From NCBI RefSeq assembly GCF_025457605.1, contig NZ_JAMZFY010000001.1, positions 1,674,001-1,738,000 of the forward strand: a DNA stretch of 64,000 bases, written 5' to 3'. Below, one piece after another: positions 2,544-13,388 of this stretch. The notes under the pieces are model-generated. The model was not told the DNA's origin. It saw only the letters and a program-made list of their open reading frames with translations, and did not search any database. Numbering within the stretch: position 1 is the first letter of the stretch; every line of letters begins with the position of its first letter. The position numbers were made by a program, and so were the translations under genes. Source of the stretch: Haloarcula laminariae. Its GTDB lineage: Archaea > Halobacteriota > Halobacteria > Halobacteriales > Haloarculaceae.

Positions 2544-3188
2544 CTACCCCGCTCTCGCCAGCGCGACGCCGATGTCGTGCTCGATGAGCAAAACCACCGA
2601 AAGCGCCGCTAGCCCGACGGCCGCGGGGTCGACCCCGGCGAGCCCGAGCGCCGAGAGGAGCCCGCTGAACTGGCCGCTCTCGAAGGCCAGCAGCAGCCAC
2701 ACCGTCGCACCGACCGCCTCGACGACGCTCGCCCCGACTGTCCCGATATCGACGACCGACGCGAAGGGGCCGACCCCGCGCACGACGTTGTCCTCGATGG
2801 TGTGCTGGGGGACCAGCAACACCGCGAACAGCCCCCCGGCGACGAGGATGCCGTCGACCCCGCCCAGTCGCTCCGCGACGCCGAGCCACAGCGCCCACAG
2901 CAGCGCCTCGGCGACACTTACCCCGAGAATCTGTCGTCCGGGCAGTGCCGAGACCGAGAGCCCGTTGACCGCCGCGTCGGCGAGGGCGTGTTTGAGTACC
3001 AGCCCCAGGCTGAGGACGCCGAACCCGACGGCGGAGGCCGCCGAGATGAGCGGCTCACCCTGGACGAGCGTCAGCCAGAGCCCCAGAGCGAGCGTCTCGA
3101 CGAGCGTGAACCCGACCATCAGAAGCGTCTGTCCCGTCACGCGAACGCCCGCGAGCGACGAGCGCTCGCCGGAGTCGATGGTGGTCAT
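2544..3188 (-). CDS. Six-helix membrane protein of unknown function
   Basis: 214 residues with about six hydrophobic segments (near residues 17-42, 50-72, 87-108, 112-130, 145-168 and 183-208) and an N-terminal soluble tail. No family is recognised. It lies between leuD (262 bases upstream) and leuB (49 bases downstream) on the same strand, so it could share a transcript with leuB. A role in branched-chain amino acid movement is conceivable only from position. No transporter signature or charged catalytic motif is seen. Confidence 0.75.
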
Positions 3189-3450
3189 ACCGTCTCTGGC
3201 GAGTCGAGTGGGAAAGTTAGCACCTGCTTACCGGCGGATAAGTCGACGCTGATAACCGTCGCTTCCCGGGCGCTACCGCCGCTGACGCGTACTACGGTCA
3301 CGTAAGCTCGCGATGTAAAAGGTGACAGGTACGACCTCGCTCTATCCCCCCGCCACTGTGAAGCAACTGCCTACGCCGCAGCGGTGAACCGGCTCAGCGG
3401 TACCCGGCCGGGAACCGGGACGTTACGGACACGAGAAACGGTCCGTGTCG

Positions 3451-4095
3451 TTAATCGTCCGCTTCGATGTCCGACCGCGTCCGGTCCAGGTACGGAAGCT
3501 TCGAGGCGGTCTCCTCGATAGCGTTCCGGTTGGCCTTCATCAGCGCCGTCGTGTCCCAGATGCCCTCGACGAGGGCCTGCCGCTGGGCGTTGTCGACGGA
3601 GACGCTGATCTCGTTGCCGCCGTAGCGGACCGTCTCGGCGTCCACGTCGACCTCGATGTCACCGCTCGGGTTGTCGTCGACCCACTGCTGGAGCGCGTTG
3701 ATGGTCTCGTGGTCGGCCGTCAGCGTCGGGATGCCGAGCGCGAGGCAGTTGCCCGCGAAAATCTCGGCGAACCCTTCGCCGATGATGGCGTCGATGCCCC
3801 ACCGCATCAGCGCCTGGGGAGCGTGCTCCCGGGAGGAGCCACAGCCGAAGTTGTTGTTGACCACCATGATGTTCGCGTCCTGGAACCGGTCCTCGTTCAG
3901 CGGGTGGTCCTTGGGGTTGTCCTCGTCGTCGAAGCGCAGGTCGAAGAAGGCGAACTCGCCCAGTCCGTCGAAGGTAACGACCTTCATGAACCGCGCCGGG
4001 ATTATCTGGTCGGTGTCGATGTCGTTCCCGCGGATGGGAACGCCGGTACCCTCGACGTAGTCGACCTCCGGAATGTCCTCGGTCGCGTCGCTCAT
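3451..4095 (-). CDS. leuD: 3-isopropylmalate dehydratase small subunit
   Basis: 214 residues. Forms isopropylmalate isomerase with LeuC, interconverting 2- and 3-isopropylmalate. The swivelling-domain motif [20 protein letters not shown] and the N-terminal [16 protein letters not shown] are typical of LeuD. The start overlaps the leuC stop by four bases (ATGA), indicating translational coupling inside the ilvBNC-leuCD transcript. The roughly 50-residue C-terminal tail after EGIWDTTA is longer than in many bacterial forms. Confidence 0.95.
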
Positions 4096-5513
4096 GCTAA
4101 GGCCACCTCCTCCAAGTCGCGCACGTCAGACACTTCACCGGTGATGGCTGCGGCGGCCACCATCCGCGGGTTCATCAGGACGGTGCGGCCGTCCTTGCTC
4201 CCTTGGCGACCGACGAAGTTCCGGTTCGAGGAACTGGCACAGGCCTCGTCGCCCTGTAGCTGGTCCTCGTTCATACCCAGACACATCGAACAGCCGGCGT
4301 TTCGCCACTCGAAGCCGGCCTCCTCGAAGATGTCCTTCAGCCCCTCTTTGCGAGCGGCTTCCTGGACGCGCTGGCTGCCGGGGACGACCATCGCGCGGAC
4401 GTCGTCGGCGACCTGTCGCCCCTTCACGATGCGTGCGGCGCGGCGCAGGTCCGGCAGTCGGGCGTTGGTACAGGAGCCCAGGAAGGCGACGTCGATGTCG
4501 TACCCCTCCATGGACTCGCCGGGCTCGACGCGCATGTGCTTCTGGGCGCGCCGGGCGGTGTCCTGCTTGTCCTCGGCCAGTTCCTCGGGGGCCGGAATCG
4601 GGTCGTGGATGCCGATACCCTGGCCGGGCGTGGTCCCCCACGTGACGACCGGGTCCAGCTCCGAGGCGTCGATTTCGACGACGTCGTCGTACTCGGCGTC
4701 CTCGTCGCTGCGGATGGACTCCCAGTACGGTTTGAGTTCGTCGAACTTCTCGGGGTGCTCCTGGAAGTAGTCGGTCTGTTCGAGCCACTCGTAGGTGGTC
4801 TCGTCGGGGTTGACGTAGCCCGCGCGAGCGCCGCCCTCGATAGACATGTTACAGATGGACATGCGGCCTTCCATATCGAGGTTCTCGATGGCCTCGCCGG
4901 CGTACTCGTAGACGTAGCCGACGCCGCCTTCGGTCCCCAGCCGGCGGATGATTTCGAGGATGATATCTTTCGCTTCGACCCCCTCGCCGAGCTCGCCGTT
5001 GACCTCGATTTTGCGGACCTTCTGTTTCTCCATCGCGATGGTCTGGGTGGCCAGCACGTCGCGGATCTGGCTGGTCCCGATACCGAACGCCAGCGCGCCG
5101 AACGCGCCGTGCGTGGAGGTGTGGCTGTCGCCACAGACGATGGTCTTGCCGGGCTGGGTGATACCCTTCTCCGGACCGATGACGTGGACGATACCCTGGT
5201 CGCCCGTCGTCGGGTCGGAGAACTGGATGCCCGCGTCGTGTACGTTCTCCTCGAGTTCGGCCATCATCCGCTCTGCGGCGTCGTCGGAGTAGGGCCGGTC
5301 CTGGTTCGCCGTTGGGACGATGTGGTCAACGGTGGCGTGAGTCAGGTCAGGACGGGCGACGTCGAGGCCCCGCTCCTGGAGCATCCCGAACGCCTGCGGG
5401 CTGGTGACCTCGTGGATGAGGTGGAGCCCGACGAACAGCTGGTCCTGCCCGTTCGGCAGCGTCGTCACTTTGTGCTGGTCCCATACCTTGTCGTACAGCG
5501 TATTCTCACTCAT
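4092..5513 (-). CDS. leuC: 3-isopropylmalate dehydratase large subunit
   Basis: 473 residues, the full length of the bacterial-type LeuC. It carries the 4Fe-4S cluster of isopropylmalate isomerase. Aconitase-family landmarks are present: [32 protein letters not shown], the cluster cysteines in FLGSCTNAR and [11 protein letters not shown], and the ending [28 protein letters not shown]. The start codon overlaps the stop of the preceding 32-codon ORF (ATGA), and its own stop overlaps leuD, so it is part of a tightly coupled operon. Confidence 0.96.
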
Positions 5514-5608
5514 ACTGTCTCATTCCGTCCTTCGATGCCACGCTCGGAGGCGCGGTCGCCGCCATCGTCCGTCGACTCGTGGTCGAGGTCGTTCATCTGT
5601 TCAGTCAT
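5510..5608 (-). CDS. Small 32-residue ORF coupled between ilvC and leuC
   Basis: Begins four bases after the ilvC stop and ends in an ATGA overlap with the leuC start. It encodes a hydrophilic acidic peptide starting [19 protein letters not shown]. The codons and composition look haloarchaeal and the junctions are the same type as elsewhere in the operon, which argues for translation. It has no cysteine, membrane segment or known motif. It may be a real small protein, or it may serve only to carry ribosomes from ilvC to leuC. Confidence 0.55.
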
Positions 5609-5612
5609 ACTC

Positions 5613-6638
5613 TCAGTCGTCGGCCGGCACTTCCGTCTCTTCTTGCTCGTCGTCCCACGAGAACAGCGAACGCAGTTCGGCGCCGACCTGTTCTATCTCG
5701 TGGTCCTGTTCGGCCTGCCGGTACTGCTTGTAGCTGGGCCGGTTGGCCTGGTTCTCGGTGATCCACTCGCGGGCGAACTCGCCGTTCTGGACCTCTTCGA
5801 GTATCTTCTCCATCCCCTCGCGGTTGATGACTTCCTCGCCGCGGGTGAGGCCGCCGTACTCGGCGGTGTCGGAGACTGAGTTCCACATCTCCATGTGGCC
5901 ACCCTCGTACATCAGGTCCACGATGAGCTTCAGCTCGTTGAGACACTCGAAGTAGGCCATCTCCGGGGAGTAGCCCGCGTCGACGAGCGTCTCGAAGCCG
6001 ACCTTCACCATCTCCGTGACGCCGCCACAGAGGACGGCCTGCTCGCCGAAGAGGTCCGTCTCGACCTCTTCCTGGAACGTCGTCTCGATGACGCCCGCGC
6101 GGGTGCAGCCGATGGCCTTGGCGTAGGAGAGCGCGCCCTCCTTCGCCTCGCCGCTGGCGTCCTGGTACACCGCGATGAGTCCCGGGGTCCCCTCGCCGCG
6201 GTCGTAGGTGCGGCGCACGAGGTGGCCGGGGGACTTGGGGGCGACCATCGTCACGTCGACGCCCTCCTGGGGCTCTATCTGGCCGTAGTGGATGTTGAAC
6301 CCGTGGGCGAACTGCAGCGTGTCGCCGGGTTCCAGCCCGTCCGAGATGGCCTCGTACACCGCCGGCTGGACGGTGTCGGGGACCAGCATGACGACGCGGT
6401 CGGCCTCCGCGGCCGCCGCGTCGGGCGTCTTGACCGTCAGCCCCGAGGCCTTGGCGTCCTCGCGCGAGGACGACCCCTTGCGGAGGCCGACGATGACGTC
6501 GACACCGGAGTCGTGGAGGTTCAGCGCGTGGGCGTGGCCCTGGGAACCGTAGCCCAGGACGGCTACCGTCTCGTCGGTTACGTGCGATACGTCGGCGTCG
6601 TCGTCGTAGTAGACTGTTGTGTCGAGTTCGTCAGTCAT
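5613..6638 (-). CDS. ilvC: Ketol-acid reductoisomerase
   Basis: 341 residues, a class I (short) enzyme. It isomerises and reduces acetolactate and acetohydroxybutyrate in valine and isoleucine synthesis. The Rossmann motif [17 protein letters not shown] is at about residues 26-42, the cofactor loop [10 protein letters not shown] suggests NADPH, and the knotted C-terminal domain carries [17 protein letters not shown] and [20 protein letters not shown] with the metal-binding acidic residues. The first codons overlap the end of ilvN by eight bases. The acidic tail [12 protein letters not shown] is a halophilic feature. Confidence 0.96.
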
Positions 6639-7230
6639 GTTTGTTCAGTGTCCTGGGGCCTCGTTCCAGCGCGGCGGCCCCCGTCCGCACGACTTCCTGC
6701 ACGTCGAACTGTTTGAACGCCTCGACGGCAGCGTCGATTTTCTGCTTGCTACCCGTGATTTCGACTGTCACCGACTCCGTGGAGGCGTCGACGGCCTGGC
6801 CGTCGTACATCTCCGCCACGGCGTTGACGTCGTCGGGTTTCTCCCCACCGACCTTGATGAGCGCGAGCTCCCGGCGGAGCGCTGTCGGGTCCAGCTCCGT
6901 CACCTCGATGACCGGAACCAGCTTCCGCAGCTGCTTTTTCGCCTGGTCGATGCCGGGTTCGGGCTCCTCGATGAGGATTGTCATCCGGGCCGTGTCCGCA
7001 TCGACCGTCGGCCCCACGGTGAGGCTTTCGATGTTGAACTGCCGCCGGGAGAACAGCGCCGAGACCTCCGACAGCACGCCGGGCTTGTGTTTGACCAGCG
7101 CCGACAGCACGGCCTGGCGCGGTTCGTGAGTCGCTTCCGCCTCGGGGTCGATTCGGATACCCTGTGAGTTCCGTCGCCCCTCCGGCTGCATCCGGTCGTG
7201 TGGCGATGGGCCGGGCATTCCACCAGTCAT
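6631..7230 (-). CDS. ilvN: Acetolactate synthase regulatory subunit
   Basis: 199 residues. It binds IlvB and usually confers valine feedback inhibition. An N-terminal ACT domain begins near residue 38 ([31 protein letters not shown]) and is followed by the small-subunit C-terminal domain. The first 37 residues are a variable polar extension. The ilvB stop and the ilvN start overlap by one base (TAATG), and the 3' end overlaps ilvC, so the two subunits are translationally coupled. Confidence 0.95.
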
Positions 7231-8993
7231 TAGAGTTCCTCCAGATGGTCTTCCTTCAGTGCGAACTTCCCGTTGTCACCGCCGCTCGGGACCATCGGGA
7301 AGACGTTCTCCCCGGGGTCGATGTGGGCGTCGATGACGCTCGGGCCGTCGTACTCGCGGGCTGCCTGAATCGTCTCCTCGACGTTCTCCTGTGCTTCCAG
7401 CCGGAACCCGCGGGCCCCGAAGGCCTCCGCGAGCTTGTCGAACTGCGGAATCCACGGGTACTCGGAGGCCATCCGCCGGCCCTCGTAGAAGCCGTCCTGC
7501 CACTGGCGGACCATCCCGACCGCCTCGTTGTTCAGGACGACGTAGGTGATGTCCAGTTGCTCGCGGACCGCGACCGAGAGGCCCTGGACCGTCATCAGGA
7601 ACGAGCCGTCGCCGTCGAAGCAGACGACCTCCTGGTCCGGGGCGGCCAGTTTCGCGCCGATGGCGGCGGGGACGCCGTAGCCCATCGTCCCGAGGCCGTG
7701 CGAGGAGACCCAGGTGCGGGGCTCGGTGTACTCCCAGAACTGGGAGGCCCACATCTGGTGCTGGCCGACGCCGGTACAGACGATGGTGTCGTCCGGCGTC
7801 ACATCGGAGAACGTCTCGACGACGTACTGGGGCTTGAGCGGCTCGTCGTCGGGCGTGTCGTAGGTCATCGGGTACTCCGACTTCCAGGTCTGGCACTGCT
7901 CGCGCCACTCGTCGGCGTCGGGTGCCCGGGGCATGGCGTCGAACAGCTGTCGCAGGACCTCCCGCGCGTCGCCGATGAGCGGGTAGTCCGCGTAGATGTT
8001 CTTCGAGATTTCGGCGGGGTCGATGTCGACGTGGATGACCTCCGCGTCCGGGGCGAAGGAGTCGACGCCGCCGGTCAGCCGGTCGTCGAAGCGGGTCCCG
8101 ATAGCCAGCAGGCAGTCGGTGTTCGAGATGGCCATGTTGGCGTAGCCGGTGCCGTGCATGCCGGCCCACTCAAGCGAGAGTTCGTGGTCCTCGGGGAAGC
8201 TCCCGATACCGGGCATCGTCGTGATGACCGGAATCTCGTACTCCGTGGCGAACTCCCGGAGCGCCGACGAGGCGTCGGCCTTGATGACGCCGCCGCCGGA
8301 GAGGATGACGGGCCGGTCGGCGGCCGCGAGTGCTTCGGCGGCCTCCTGGACGTCTTCGTCGTCGGCCTCCTCCTGAACCTCGTAGGTATCCGGCGTCGTC
8401 GCCTCACCGGGTTCGACGTCGGTCTCGCCCTGCGTGATGTCCTTCGGGAGGTCAACGAGGGTCGGCCCCTGTCGGCCGGCGTCGGCCAGCGCGAAGGCCT
8501 CGCCGACGTCGTCGCCGACGGTGTCCGAATCGGACGCGAAGTAGCTCTCCTTGGTGACCGGCTGGGTGATACCCACCGTGTCGGTCTCCTGGAAGGCGTC
8601 GTTGCCGACGAACTCCGTCGGGACCTGCCCGGTCAGGGCTATCATCGGGTCCGAGTCCATGTTGGCGTCGGCGATGCCCGTGACGAGGTTCGTCGCGCCC
8701 GGGCCCGAGGTCGCAAAGCAGACGCCGGGCTTGCCCGAGACGATGCCGAAGGCGTCGGCGGCGTGGGAGGCCCCCTGCTCGTGGGCCATCGTCACGTGGT
8801 TGAGGTCGGAGTCGTACAGCGCGTCGTAGACGGGCATGATGGCCCCGCCCTGGACGCCGAAGATGTACTCCGCGCCGGCGTTTTCCAGCGCCCGGACGAC
8901 GGACTGGGCCCCGGTGGTGACCGGGGCCTGTTCGGCGTCGGCGGACTGTTCGTCCGCGGTGTCGTCTTCCGCTGGCGGTGCGTGCTCGCTCAT
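7230..8993 (-). CDS. ilvB: Acetolactate synthase catalytic subunit
   Basis: 587 residues. A thiamine-diphosphate enzyme joining pyruvate with pyruvate or 2-oxobutyrate, the first common step of branched-chain amino acid synthesis. An acidic 30-residue head precedes the PYR domain (AEYIFGVQGGAIMPVYDAL, AHEQGASHAADAF). The ThDP motif GDGSFLMTVQ..NNEAVGM is in the C-terminal domain. The start is chosen because GGAGGG lies about 6 bases upstream. About 200 bases of leader with a candidate Leu/Val/Ile leader peptide precede it, suggesting control by amino acid supply. Confidence 0.96.
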   Translation of the reverse strand: MSEHAPPAEDDTADEQSADAEQAPVTTGAQSVVRALENAGAEYIFGVQGGAIMPVYDALYDSDLNHVTMAHEQGASHAADAFGIVSGKPGVCFATSGPGATNLVTGIADANMDSDPMIALTGQVPTEFVGNDAFQETDTVGITQPVTKESYFASDSDTVGDDVGEAFALADAGRQGPTLVDLPKDITQGETDVEPGEATTPDTYEVQEEADDEDVQEAAEALAAADRPVILSGGGVIKADASSALREFATEYEIPVITTMPGIGSFPEDHELSLEWAGMHGTGYANMAISNTDCLLAIGTRFDDRLTGGVDSFAPDAEVIHVDIDPAEISKNIYADYPLIGDAREVLRQLFDAMPRAPDADEWREQCQTWKSEYPMTYDTPDDEPLKPQYVVETFSDVTPDDTIVCTGVGQHQMWASQFWEYTEPRTWVSSHGLGTMGYGVPAAIGAKLAAPDQEVVCFDGDGSFLMTVQGLSVAVREQLDITYVVLNNEAVGMVRQWQDGFYEGRRMASEYPWIPQFDKLAEAFGARGFRLEAQENVEETIQAAREYDGPSVIDAHIDPGENVFPMVPSGGDNGKFALKEDHLEEL

Positions 8994-9206
8994 AAGTTCC
9001 CTCCGGTTGTGTGCTGTCGGTACGAACGTCGTGTGTGTGCTGTGTGCATAGCTGGGGTGTCTGGTCGGTGGTCGATAGTCGGTACGGGCCGTGACGGAAG
9101 TGGGTGATGTGGGGCTATACCGCCCCTACAATACCGACATGGCGGAGAAGAAGCGCACCGCTGGCGGTCGGCCGGTCCGGAGTGCCAGTGTGCGCCGTCA
9201 TCGTAC
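8994..9206 (-). promoter_or_regulatory. ilvB operon mRNA leader with candidate attenuator pairings
   Basis: On the minus strand this is the predicted 5' leader of ilvB. After the leader ORF (9201-9115) come 121 bases before the ilvB ATG. Within the leader ORF, GTCGGTA (9138-9132, the Val-Gly-Ile codons) is exactly complementary to TACCGAC at 9084-9078 and again at 9022-9016. CCGCC (9145-9141) can pair with GGCGG (9124-9120), while the overlapping GGGGC (9126-9122) can instead pair with GCCCC (9115-9111). These exclusive pairings are what an attenuator needs. No U-run typical of haloarchaeal termination is seen, so control of ilvB translation is equally possible. The structures were found by eye. 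Confidence 0.5.
9115..9201 (-). CDS. Candidate branched-chain amino acid leader peptide of ilvB
   Basis: A 28-codon ORF in the ilvB leader. Its ATG lies about 30 bases below the TATA centre, so the message would start almost at this codon and be leaderless. The N-terminal half is unremarkable. The C-terminal half reads ALLLRHVGIVGAV: three Leu, one Ile and three Val in thirteen residues, just before TAG. The codons are CTT CTT CTC, then GTC, ATT, GTA and GTA, whereas the structural genes nearby mostly use CTC/CTG, ATC and GTC. Clusters of the operon's end-product codons define bacterial ilv leader peptides (known biology). Its use here is inferred. Confidence 0.6.
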   Translation of the reverse strand: MTAHTGTPDRPTASGALLLRHVGIVGAV

Positions 9207-9227
9207 CCTGAGACTGTCCGCGACAGG

Positions 9228-9235
9228 TAATAAAC
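9228..9235 (-). promoter_or_regulatory. TATA box of the ilvBNC-leuCD operon
   Basis: GTTTATTA on the minus strand. The centre near 9231 predicts a transcription start near 9205, using the usual archaeal spacing of about 26 bases. That is four bases above the leader-peptide ATG and about 210 bases above ilvB. No other good TATA element was seen closer to ilvB. Confidence 0.6.
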
Positions 9236-9326
9236 GTTCTGTGATAGCTCGTGGCGAACGCCGGATACGGCGCGGAGTGGGCGTGGCTGTCGGCTCGTCG
9301 CGGCGACCGAACCAGAGGTCATGGGC

Positions 9327-10548
9327 CTACGCCCGGACCTCCTCGCTCTCCTCGTCGACGCCGACCTCCGTGGCGAACCGTTCGAGTTCGCTCATGGTGA
9401 CCTGCTGTTTCTCCGCGCCGAACTCCTTGACGCGTCGGGTCACCTCCCGCACTTCGGCGTCGGTCGGGTCGTAGCCCGCATCGACCAGGCGCTCGCGGAC
9501 CGAGTGGGCGCCGGTGTGTTTGCCAAGCACCAGCTCGCGCTCGGCCCCGACCATCTCGGGTGTCATGACGCCGGGCTCGAACGTGTCGGAGTTCTCGATG
9601 ACGCCCGCCGCGTGGATGCCGCTCTCGTGGGAGAAGGCGTTGCGCCCGACGATGGGCTTGTTGGCCGGCACCGGGATGTCCGACTTCTCCTCGACCAGCC
9701 GCGACAGCTCCGTGATACGGGTCGTGTCGATGCCCGTGTTCACGTCGTAGAGCGATTCCAGCGCCATCACGACCTCCTCGTAGGCCGCGTTGCCCGCCCG
9801 CTCGCCGATGCCGTTGACCGACACCTGCGACTGGCTCGCGCCCGCCTCGAAGCCGGAGATGGCGTTCGCGGAGGCGAAGCCGAAGTCGTCGTGGGTGTGA
9901 ACGTCGATGCGCGCGTCCGTATGCGCGTCGACGATTTCGATGAGGTCGTAGAACCTACGGGGCGTGGCGACCCCGCAGGTGTCGGGGATGTTGATCCAGT
10001 CGGCCCCCGCGTCCGATGTCGCCTCGATGACCTCGATGAGGAACTCCTCCGAGGTCCGGGTGGCGTCCATCGGCGAGAACATGCACTCGGCGCCCGCCTC
10101 CGTGATGCGCTCGACGGACTCGACGGCCGAGTCCAGCGCCTCCTGACGGGTGGCGTGCATGGAGTCTTGTAACTGTACGTCGGACGTCGAGACGAAGGTG
10201 TGGACCATGTCCACACCCGAGTCCAGGGCCGCCTCGATATCCTTCTCGACCACGCGCGCCAGCCCGCACGTCGTCACGTGAGTGGACTCAGCGATGTCGC
10301 GGACCGCCTCGAACTCCGCGTCGGAGTTGACGGGGAACCCGGCCTCGATGACGTGGGTCCCCATCTCGTCGAGTACAGCCGCTATCTCGCGTTTGTCCTC
10401 GTAGTTGAACGACGTGCGTGGTGACTGCTCACCGTCGCGCAGCGTGGTGTCGAAAATGCGTGCGTCTGTAATCTCAGACGTGGAATCCAGTGTGCCCTGG
10501 AAGAACTCGATCCGCCGGAGATCCCGACGTGCCCTCGTTGTTGGACAT
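9327..10548 (-). CDS. leuA: 2-isopropylmalate synthase (LeuA/CimA family), apparent N-terminal frameshift
   Basis: Condenses acetyl-CoA with 2-oxoisovalerate, the first step of leucine synthesis; archaeal homologues can be citramalate synthases. The HMGL-like barrel (FDTTLRDGEQSPR, GTHVIEAGFPVNSDAEF, the HTHDDFGFA metal site, NGIGERAGNAAYEEVVM) is present. The frame is open to 9327, but upstream of Met at 10364 it contains the catalytic DTTLRDGEQ and has no ATG, GTG or TTG. The expected start MSNNEGTS (ATG at 10548) is one frame off. Removing one G from the GGG at 10525-10523 joins them as MSNNEGTSDLRRIEFFQGTL, giving about 406 residues. Starting at 10364 would lose the catalytic loop. Confidence 0.85.
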
Positions 10549-10576
10549 AAGCAGGTGATACTGGACCCTTCCGATA

Positions 10577-10582
10577 CTTATA
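10577..10582 (-). promoter_or_regulatory. TATA box of leuA
   Basis: TATAAG on the minus strand. It is centred about 31 bases above the ATG at 10548, so the transcript would be leaderless or nearly so. The intact promoter and ATG support 10548 as the original leuA start despite the frameshift nine codons in. Confidence 0.5.
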
Positions 10583-10757
10583 GTTGTTCATCGGAGCGGC
10601 CGGTCGACAGCTATCGCGGTTCGGGTGGTCGCAGGGCCGGCAGCTCCGTCTCGGTCGCTGGCCGCTCGCTCTCTTGGAGACACCTCACCCGTCTCGCAAG
10701 CCAGTCGTCAGACGCCGGGGAGAGGATTTTTGCTGGTCGGACGCGTGCACACGGAGT

Positions 10758-11063
10758 ATGAGCGATTTCGAGGGACTGGACCTGCAAGCGGTGGAGGACC
10801 AGATGGCGGCCGACGAGGAGACCGGCGGGAGCCACCGGGTCGTCCTCGGGGTGCTGGACGGCACGACCGACGACGCGGAGTGGGTCGAGACCATCGAGGA
10901 CGGGCGGGTGCTCGTGTTGAACGTCGAGGGGGACCTGAACGAGCTCGCCTCGGGCTTCGCCCGGCCGGTTAAGGACGCCGGCGGCGACCTGATGCACTTC
11001 CGGGGCTTTCTCATCGTGACGCCGGCGGGCGTCACCATCGACAAGAGCCGGCTGGACACCTGA
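10758..11063 (+). CDS. Small conserved haloarchaeal protein (DUF5779-like)
   Basis: 101 residues, acidic, with no membrane segment. The pattern HRVVLGVLDGTTDDAEWVETI..VLVLNVEGDLNELASGFARPVKDAGGDLMHFRGFLIVTP resembles a haloarchaeal family I recall as DUF5779, of unknown function. The ATG at 10758 follows a short intergenic region and is preferred over upstream in-frame codons because the conserved part begins there. It is divergent from leuA and convergent with the VOC gene. No catalytic motif is visible. Confidence 0.7.
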   Translation: MSDFEGLDLQAVEDQMAADEETGGSHRVVLGVLDGTTDDAEWVETIEDGRVLVLNVEGDLNELASGFARPVKDAGGDLMHFRGFLIVTPAGVTIDKSRLDT

Positions 11064-11069
11064 CCGGGC

Positions 11070-11759
11070 TCACCCGACCAGCGTCACGTAGTGGCCGTCG
11101 GGGTCGCGAATCCGCACGCCGTCGTCGATGGACGTGACCGCCAGCGCGTCGTCGGCCACCTCGCGGGCGACGGCGCCGGGGTCGTCGGCGCCCACGCCGA
11201 AGTCCACGTGGACGCCGCCCCGGGCGTCGGCGATACCCAGCCGCGACGACCACAGTTCGAGGTCGAACTCGCCGGTCGTGAGCCGGACCCGACCGGCTTC
11301 GCGGTCGTCGTCGATTACCTCGAAGCCGAGGCGCTCGTAGAACTCGACGGCGGCCGCCAGGGTTTCGACCTCAAGTACCAGCTCGAAGAGGTCGCCGACC
11401 CCGCCGCTGTCGCCGTCCCGGGACCGTTCGCCCAGTTCGACGCAGTTGCCCTCGGGGTCGTAGAAGTACAGCGAGCGCGCGTCGCCGAAGGTGTGTTCGA
11501 CCAGTTCGAACCGCTCGTCGAGCCGGTCGTACCAGTCGTCGTACTCCCGCTCGGGCACTGTCAGCGCGTAGTGGGTGTGGAGCCCGCCGCGGGGGACCGG
11601 CCCGGGCGCACGTAGACGGATGTCCGTCCCGCCGGCCTTGAGGACAGTCTCGGCCTCGCTCGACTCGACGGTGTCGAGTTCGAGGAAGGCGTCGTAGAAC
11701 GCGGTCAGGCGGTCGGGGTACTTCGCCTCCAGCGTGAGCCACTCCGGGGTGGAGAGCAT
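11070..11759 (-). CDS. VOC (glyoxalase/dioxygenase) superfamily protein, two tandem domains
   Basis: 229 residues from the ATG at 11759 (MLSTPEWLTLEAKYPDRLTA); an upstream in-frame ATG at 11852 would add an unconserved tail. Two beta-alpha-beta-beta-beta halves are seen. The first has FYDAFLELDTVESSE, a metal-type histidine in GGLHTHYALTVPE and YFYDPEGNCVELGE. The second begins LVLEVETLAAAVEFYERLGFEV and ends VRIRDPDGHYVTLVG. This layout fits ring-cleavage dioxygenase or glyoxalase relatives such as CatE. The substrate is unknown and there is no catabolic neighbour. Confidence 0.8.
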   Translation of the reverse strand: MLSTPEWLTLEAKYPDRLTAFYDAFLELDTVESSEAETVLKAGGTDIRLRAPGPVPRGGLHTHYALTVPEREYDDWYDRLDERFELVEHTFGDARSLYFYDPEGNCVELGERSRDGDSGGVGDLFELVLEVETLAAAVEFYERLGFEVIDDDREAGRVRLTTGEFDLELWSSRLGIADARGGVHVDFGVGADDPGAVAREVADDALAVTSIDDGVRIRDPDGHYVTLVG

Positions 11760-11864
11760 GGCTCCGCGTTGGTCGCCGACGGGCAAAACTGTCGGGTCCG
11801 CGGTGTGGGGCGCGGGCGACCAGCGGGCCGGAATATTGAACAGCGCCGACACCCAGCCTCAGCT

Positions 11865-12617
11865 ATGGAACGTTCGCGCCGGAGCGTACTCGTCGGTGGT
11901 GTCGCGCTCGTCGCCGGATGAGGGGGTCGAGAGACCGGGGGCAGTAACGGTTCCCCGACAGAGACCGGGCGGCGGACGGCGACCACGGCCGCCACTGACT
12001 GTGCGCCCAGCGGTATCGAGACGCGGGAGGGGCGGACGGAGTACGCCCTCAGCGCCTACGAGGACGCTTACGACGACATGAACGGGGCGCTGGACGAAAT
12101 CGGGGCCGTAATCACCGGCGACGGCCTGTACGCGGCCCGGGAAGAGGGACCGGACGCGAACACGCCGGACGGGCTGATACTCGAGACGCGGGACGGCGGC
12201 GACGTCTTGGTCACGCTCACCGACCTGTCCGGCAGCGCTATCGCCGACATGCGAAACGACTGGTTCTACGACGCTATCGAAGCGTTCCGGGGCGCACAGG
12301 GTGCCCTCGACTCCAACGTCGACTCCTGGAACGAGGTGCGCGAGTTCGTCACCGCTTGCGAGGTCGACGATGCCGACCTGTTCCCTGGCCCGATAGCGGA
12401 CGGTATCGCCACCGCACGGCACCTCCGAACCGCCGCCGAGAAGTTCGAGCAGGAGTGTACCGTCTACCTCGACAACGACGCGACGTTCGACACCGAGCTC
12501 GCGGAGGCGGACCGGTTACAGGCGGACGCCATCTCGGCGCTACGTAGCGCGGCCGCGGACTACCCGCGGTCCCCGACGAGCCTCGAGAACGAGGTGACGG
12601 TGTACCGGAGCGAGTGA
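11865..12617 (+). pseudogene. Lipoprotein gene with in-frame TGA at the lipobox cysteine
   Basis: From ATG 11865 the frame reads MERSRRSVLVGGVALVAG, a Tat-like signal ending in a lipobox, and then TGA (11919-11921) exactly where the lipid-modified Cys is expected. The same frame stays open for 231 more codons to 12617, beginning GGRETGGSNGS (a normal lipoprotein linker) and continuing into an acidic helical domain with three further cysteines. TGA is one base from TGC or TGT. The next in-frame start is ATG 12078, which would give a 179-residue cytosolic protein without the signal. A TATA-like GAATATTG lies about 30 bases above ATG 11865. No family is recognised. Confidence 0.65.
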
Positions 12618-12707
12618 GCCGGCCGTCGCGGCGCCGGACCGCTCCGGTAGCCTGGCTCGCTTCGGTTAGTTAGACCCTTTATCCACGCCGGGGTCCTACC
12701 GTGGCCT

Positions 12708-13388
12708 ATGCCAATGAAAGGCGACGGCGTGGCGTCGGACTGGGCGGAAACGAATCGCTGGGACCGGGGGGCGAGCTGGCTCGCCTATCCCGAGGAGGGG
12801 ATGCAGCGGGCGAGTCACGTCCTCGGGACCGAAGCCGGTGCCATCGTCGTCGACCCGGTCGACGCCGAGGGCATCGACGACCTCTTCGCGGAGTTCGGTG
12901 ACGTGGCCGGAGTCATCCTTCTGCTGGATCGCCACAAGCGCGACTCGGCGGCTATCGCGAAACGCCACGACGTACCCGTCTACATCCCCGACGCGCTCGC
13001 CGGCACGGAAGACGACATCGACGCCCCCACCGAGCGGGTCCACCGGCAGATTCCGGGCACCGACTACGGCATCCACGAGCTCACGAGCAACGCCTTCTGG
13101 CAGGAGGCGGCGCTGTACGGCGACGAAGACGACACGCTCGTGGTGCCGGAGGCCGTCGGGACGGTCGACTACTTCCTCGCCGGCGGCGAGCGCCTGGGCG
13201 TCCACCCGATGCTGCGGCTGACGCCGCCGACGAAGCTGAACCGGCTCGACCCGGAGCGGCTGCTCGTTGGCCACGGCCACGGCATCGCGGACGACGCCGG
13301 CGGGGCCCTTTCGGACGCGCTCCGCGGGTCCCGCAGACGGACGCCGGGGCTGTACGTGAAGAACCTGAAGTCGTTCGTGCTGGGATAG
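12708..13388 (+). CDS. Metallo-beta-lactamase-fold-like protein, motif degenerate
   Basis: 226 residues. Overall pattern like MBL-fold hydrolases: ASHVLGTEAGAIVVDPVD, then VILLLDRHKRDSAAIAKRHDVPVYIPDA where active enzymes have THxHxDH followed by a strand, then LLVGHGHGI near the C-terminus. The double-His motif is reduced to DRHKRD, so metal-dependent activity is doubtful. A TATA-like CCTTTATCC lies about 30 bases above the ATG, consistent with leaderless expression. Single gene. Function unknown. Confidence 0.6.
   Translation: MPMKGDGVASDWAETNRWDRGASWLAYPEEGMQRASHVLGTEAGAIVVDPVDAEGIDDLFAEFGDVAGVILLLDRHKRDSAAIAKRHDVPVYIPDALAGTEDDIDAPTERVHRQIPGTDYGIHELTSNAFWQEAALYGDEDDTLVVPEAVGTVDYFLAGGERLGVHPMLRLTPPTKLNRLDPERLLVGHGHGIADDAGGALSDALRGSRRRTPGLYVKNLKSFVLG

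Follow-up and report, generated by a model that had tools for sequence, protein, structure and literature searches.

Introduction

Leader-peptide attenuation is a textbook bacterial mechanism of gene control that depends on tight coupling between transcription and translation. In the E. coli attenuators of ilvGMEDA, ilvBN, leu and pheST, the last with a Phe-rich leader, the control codons match the end product of the pathway or the amino acid of the regulated synthetase, and the peptide itself is unimportant. To our knowledge, haloarchaea are held to make only rare use of structured 5' leaders.

The Corynebacterium ilvBNC attenuator (ilvB-II motif; leader MTIIRLVVVTARRLP) likewise places a short ORF with Val, Ile and Leu codons before ilvBN, and its control codons have been named as CUU and GUA (PMC11857589, PMC10272879). 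In the haloarchaeon H. volcanii, mapped transcript starts revealed upstream ORFs (uORFs) of 15-31 aa, one of them, of 26 aa, before pheS (Babski et al. 2016, PMC4983044). These were listed as possible small proteins, with ilvB and valS absent and no amino-acid-sensing role proposed; the dRNA-seq table lists no ilvB uORF and covers only 5'-UTRs of 150-250 nt (PMC4983044). We found no description of an archaeal leader-peptide attenuator in the open-access literature searched.

Here we analyze a leader upstream of ilvB in Haloarcula laminariae whose control codons, as in the E. coli-type attenuators, specify the end product of the pathway; in leaders of this kind before a synthetase gene they specify its amino acid. 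The ilvB leader differs from those attenuators in having no conserved antiterminator/terminator pair and, in the sequence studied here, no U-run, and in belonging to a system with an archaeal RNA polymerase and termination at T-stretches and by FttA/aCPSF1. The Corynebacterium attenuator is bacterial and has separate terminator and antiterminator hairpins, whereas the haloarchaeal leader has one small hairpin that overlaps the leader's own stop codon, an ORF predicted to begin with the first nucleotides of the RNA, and a second uORF that overlaps the ilvB start and is putatively coupled to it. The principle is known from Bacteria, but the haloarchaeal version differs in domain, in its stop-codon hairpin, in its predicted leaderless start and in its second uORF, and for these reasons we consider it a new form.

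Results

Genomic Setting

The window analyzed is a 64,000-nt stretch of the H. laminariae genome (family Haloarculaceae, order Halobacteriales), and all coordinates given for this locus are positions within it; every feature of the locus described here lies on the minus strand. leuA (9327-10364) is followed by a gap and then by ilvB-ilvN-ilvC-leuC-leuD. These genes encode the large subunit of acetolactate synthase (ilvB, 7230-8993; TIGR00118, above its cut-off), its small subunit (ilvN, 6631-7230; NF008864, TIGR00119), ketol-acid reductoisomerase (ilvC, 5613-6638; NF004017), and the large (leuC, 4092-5513; TIGR00170) and small (leuD, 3451-4095; TIGR00171) subunits of 3-isopropylmalate dehydratase. 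A more distal leuB-like dehydrogenase (1511-2494; best match TIGR02088, below its cut-off) is a putative member of the operon.

The original prediction had placed a TATA element just upstream of a 28-codon ORF running from an ATG at 9201 to a TAG at 9115, and these coordinates were confirmed. The TATA-like element TTTATTA occupies 9234-9228, with a predicted transcript start at or adjoining the leader ATG, which would make the leader ORF leaderless. This ORF, uORF1 (9115-9201; stop TAG at 9117-9115), encodes the peptide MTAHTGTPDRPTASGALLLRHVGIVGAV.

A Conserved Reading Frame Upstream of ilvB

DNA upstream of ilvB was compared among 123 sequences from the same family, representing 21 genera, and a further 40 drawn from other families within the order. 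We found the core GTA-GGG-GCN-(NNN)-stop in 122 of the 123 family sequences, the exception being a fragment, and in 34 of the 40 others. In nearly every family member an Ile codon stands before the core and CCCC after it. The stop lies three codons from GTA in 110 family members and two codons in 12. It is retained as a stop while its identity changes, being mostly TAG in the family and TGA or TAA in many other members of the order. An exact 19-nt pattern (GTAGGGGC N4 TAGCCCC) turned up in 196 of the 392 order genomes, well above a reversed control, and a search of the phylum returned matches outside the order that mostly had no in-frame stop and resembled chance hits.

The start of uORF1, at the predicted 5' end of the transcript, is conserved among relatives along with its frame, stop and last codons. 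Among the 135 sequences in which both the ATG following the TATA box and the GTA could be located, the first ATG past the TATA box was open and in frame with GTA in 122, against about 45 expected. The 33 nt that separate the start of the TATA element from the ATG in H. laminariae is also the most frequent spacing among relatives (75/135), and for this reason uORF1 is predicted to begin at, or a few nucleotides from, the 5' end of the transcript. The conserved ORF, frame and TATA spacing make uORF1 a candidate translated ORF close to the 5' end of the mRNA.

Outside the last codons the peptide shows pN/pS of about 1 in all frames, and the leader, mostly 18-32 codons long, drifts freely in sequence. 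uORF1 is real, well above chance expectation, and the conservation of ORF, frame and control codons throughout the order bears out the expectation that they would be kept upstream of ilvB in relatives. A frame that is kept while the peptide is unconstrained is what characterizes a leader peptide, as opposed to a functional microprotein.

Codon Content of the Leader

uORF1 carries the Leu codons CTT CTT CTC at 9153-9145 and the Ile-Val codons ATT GTA at 9132-9127. It had been claimed that the adjoining genes mostly avoid the CTT, ATT and GTA codons of the leader, and this held up in counts from 12 coding sequences of the window: CTT accounts for 3.3% of Leu codons, ATT for 6.7% of Ile codons and GTA for 4.2% of Val codons, compared with 37, 77 and 53%, respectively, in the leaders of relatives, the last of these values being partly by construction because GTA served to locate the core. 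GTA is the last Val codon in every leader counted, and a DNA search that made no assumption about GTA also singled out this core as the most highly conserved segment in distant genera. An Ile codon directly precedes GTA in 118 of 122 leaders, and is ATT in 75%.

The control codons for the end product (ATT/ATC-GTA) are thus conserved while the remainder of the peptide drifts. The earlier reading of the Leu, Ile and Val codons as those of a leader peptide stands for the Ile-Val pair but not in full for leucine: Leu codons (CTT/CTC; peptides such as ALLLR.. and AILG..) are frequent in leaders yet absent from several genera. Judged from the alignment, the conserved core is Ile-Val, and the Leu codons appear to be secondary control codons that are not universal. 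GTA can also pair with a TAC downstream of the hairpin described below in 27 of 122 genomes, and retention of GTA and GGG could be due in part to RNA structure.

A Hairpin That Carries the Leader Stop

Directly after the GTA control codon begins a hairpin, HP1 (9126-9111), formed by GGGGC (9126-9122), the loop GGTATA and GCCCC (9115-9111), with the uORF1 stop, TAG at 9117-9115, at the end of the loop. In relatives the loop likewise holds the leader stop, whether TAG, TGA or TAA. Across 68 diverse sequences HP1 was paired in 98.5% of cells of the alignment, with two-sided changes in two of its five pairs, and compensatory variants in the full set included GGGCC/GGCCC, CGGGC/GCCCG and GGGGT/ACCCC. 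A second candidate helix, P0 (helix 1), lies within uORF1 at 9190-9159, where CACTGG (9190-9185) faces CCAGCG (9164-9159); its family form is CGCTGG/CCAGCG. With 73.9% of cells paired and two-sided changes in four of six pairs, P0 appears to be a weaker, family-level hairpin that covaries in part.

Alternative folds had also been proposed for this leader, and they fared unevenly. The GGGGC/GCCCC hairpin is real and conserved, but its supposed competitor, CCGCC/GGCGG, draws GGCGG, present in 11 of 122 genomes, from the variable loop. Similarly, two downstream copies of TACCGAC that could pair with GTCGGTA are present in H. laminariae, but an equivalent exact match was found in 2 of 122 genomes against 1.1 expected. 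We rejected these competing folds as chance, without conservation among the 122 genomes. No conserved competing pairing of the kind expected for two mutually exclusive antiterminator and terminator hairpins emerged, and a covariation scan for further long-range pairs gave nothing convincing except HP1 and P0. The whole leader folded no better than its shuffles (z -0.81), and an Rfam search of positions 3000-13000 gave no match up to E = 1 to a T-box or other described family.

A conserved motif, CG-N-A-[CT]-C-G, is seen about 45 nt past GTA (about 9079-9086 in the window) in the majority of ilvB leaders and in some of those before valS; it forms no clear hairpin.

The Spacer and a Second uORF

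HP1 is followed by a G-poor, C/A-rich spacer (9110-9050) that among relatives has 20.8% G and 37.7% C, with G below C in all 21 genera. T-runs of at least 4 follow HP1 in 40 of 122 genomes, compared with about 7 expected; most T-runs are located 25-35 or about 50 nt beyond GTA. In the window the spacer contains at most two consecutive Ts, in agreement with the original prediction, which noted the lack of a U-run, and for that reason no classical terminator is visible there. Between genes, H. volcanii terminates transcription at T-stretches, with hairpins upstream of some sites (PMC7237163), and the termination factor FttA prefers U-rich RNA and has been proposed to be excluded by a coupled ribosome (PMC11616081). 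The enrichment of T-runs in the family, together with termination at T-stretches in H. volcanii, favors premature termination as the output of the leader, although the window itself lacks such a run.

Beyond the spacer lies a second ORF, uORF2 (9049-8990; MHTAHTRRSYRQHTTGGNL), which the original prediction had not included. Its TGA shares the sequence ATGA (8993-8990) with the ilvB start codon, both in the window and in most relatives. The ATG of uORF2 is found about 80 nt past GTA in many genera (44 cases at exactly +80), with a distance that varies mostly by multiples of three, and in genomes that lack uORF2 it is ilvB itself that begins about 80 nt past GTA. uORF2 and ilvB form a stop-start (ATGA) gene pair and are putatively coupled; in H. 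volcanii such an ATGA overlap couples translation, and translational coupling works over 30-40 nt (reviewed in PMC12548453). Peptides predicted from uORF2 often contain R/Q-Y-R, for example RYRP or NRRYRT, across families.

Similar Leaders at Other Genes

A second copy of the motif precedes valS in many genomes. Scanning GTDB genomes for the exact pattern placed at least 57 matches upstream of ilvB and at least 18 upstream of valS, some haloarchaeal matches remaining unassigned as the DNA record ended beforehand. The valS gene of H. laminariae (NF009687, TIGR00422) is preceded by the leader MARRVRRPSVVVPVVGVPTPH, in which GTA occurs three times and GGGG pairs with CCCC in a hairpin, and in one valS leader the stem is reversed (GGCCCC-CGCTA-GGGGCC) with the stop still in the loop. 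As the device also stands before valS, valine is indicated as a signal. A non-orthologous synthetase, which we read from its sequence as ValS-like, has only GTA-GTA mini-leaders (MALMSSVVR, MDVVASVVRAPAR and MRWSSVVRV, each ending at a stop) without such a hairpin.

Upstream of pheS, a Phe-rich leader ending in ..GFGFFFA(x) before its stop, or in a near variant, was found in about 18 of 28 genomes of the order; in H. laminariae this leader has CTG in place of the ATG of its relatives. The 26-aa uORF mapped before pheS in H. volcanii has the same size and place. No such leader was seen before ileS, leuS or trpC in the upstream regions examined. A candidate trpS leader was discarded, its W-containing short ORFs resembling the C-terminal end of the upstream gene. 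Within the genus, a motif version without GTA (GGGGC..TAGCCCC) recovered, besides ilvB, a repeated site, GGGGCCTAGCCCC, on the opposite strand of the archaeal SRP RNA gene (RF01857), which has no relation to the leader. At trpC, a leaderless promoter is accompanied by a conserved palindrome-like block (TTATGTACA..TGTACGTTAGTGTACAGTAATG) in the last 40 nt upstream of the gene, possibly an operator.

Discussion

The ORF with its frame and control codons, the stop within a hairpin, the covariation, the ATGA overlap and the recurrence at valS are an anatomy that is read directly from the DNA, and from it we infer the transcript start, translation, stalling, the direction of regulation and the output step. 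We consider it quite probable that uORF1 is translated and acts in cis as a leader sensing charged tRNA-Val and tRNA-Ile, with tRNA-Leu added in many species. The predicted start of transcription is the uORF1 ATG, and ribosomes would therefore load directly onto uORF1. When Ile- and Val-tRNA are charged, the ribosome would pass ATT-GTA-GGG-GCN and terminate at the stop in the HP1 loop; its release would allow HP1 to form, and expression of the operon would be held down. Under a shortage of valine or isoleucine, the ribosome would stall at ATT or GTA with its front edge covering the 5' arm of HP1, which would be blocked; transcript and translation would proceed into uORF2 and then, through the ATGA overlap, into ilvB, and expression of the operon would rise. 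This on/off geometry is not the only one conceivable, because stalled and terminating ribosomes would each cover part of HP1.

The most likely output of HP1, in what we regard as an evenly balanced judgement, would be premature transcription termination in the spacer; fewer ribosomes entering at uORF2-ilvB is a possible but less probable outcome. Between termination and translational control, the former seems somewhat likelier. In a purely translational version, which we regard as a tentative alternative, the same sensor would leave transcription unattenuated, and ribosome traffic over HP1 and uORF1 would gate uORF2, with ilvB reached by termination and reinitiation through the ATGA. The position of the uORF2 ATG about 80 nt past GTA, the end of uORF2 on the ilvB start, the shift of ilvB itself to about 80 nt where uORF2 is missing, and the demonstration of ATGA coupling in H. 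volcanii (PMC12548453) all fit this version. However, about 65 nt separate the uORF1 stop from the uORF2 start, more than the 30-40 nt coupling range, HP1 does not visibly sequester the start of uORF2 or ilvB, and the T-tract enrichment behind HP1 would be left without a role.

The other explanations fare much worse. Strong conservation of HP1 and its surrounding nucleotides, GTA and GGG included, might suggest a riboswitch-like structured RNA or a protein-binding site in which the ORF is incidental, but loop changes are mostly in-frame, stop codons are exchanged for one another, an in-frame ATG sits at the predicted transcript start, the GTA-GTA leaders of the non-orthologous ValS-like gene lack this hairpin, and no Rfam family matches, making this reading improbable. 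That uORF1 encodes a functional microprotein, as the conserved position of the short ORF across the order might imply, is highly improbable given a pN/pS near 1 in every frame once the last codons are set aside, a length of mostly 18-32 codons and the free drift of its sequence. A programmed frameshift at GTA-GGG-GCN, by which ribosomes would avoid the stop and read the uORF2 frame up to the ilvB start, has in its favor that the frame closing at ATGA, usually open through HP1, is frame 2 counted from GTA in 94 of 116 genomes; this frame is, however, broken in several lineages by spacers that do not differ by multiples of three, and no conserved slippery site exists in that direction, so we give the idea very little credence. 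Least credible of all is a DNA-level promoter or operator element, which would suit a position directly downstream of the TATA box but not the codon-phase constraints and RNA-type compensatory changes.

Returning to uORF1 as a sensor of charged tRNA, we think it reasonably likely that haloarchaea have a general set of such leader peptides (Ile-Val for ilvB, Val for valS and Phe for pheS), of which two or more use a stop-carrying hairpin, and that ribosome-mediated attenuation in these Archaea is coupled to archaeal termination. If true, this order-wide example would mean that coupling between transcription and translation in Archaea is tight enough for stalls at single codons to be sensed, and it would provide a natural system in which to test whether FttA/aCPSF1 acts in translation-dependent termination, as has been proposed. 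It would also explain how amino-acid synthesis and aminoacyl-tRNA synthetases are controlled in haloarchaea.
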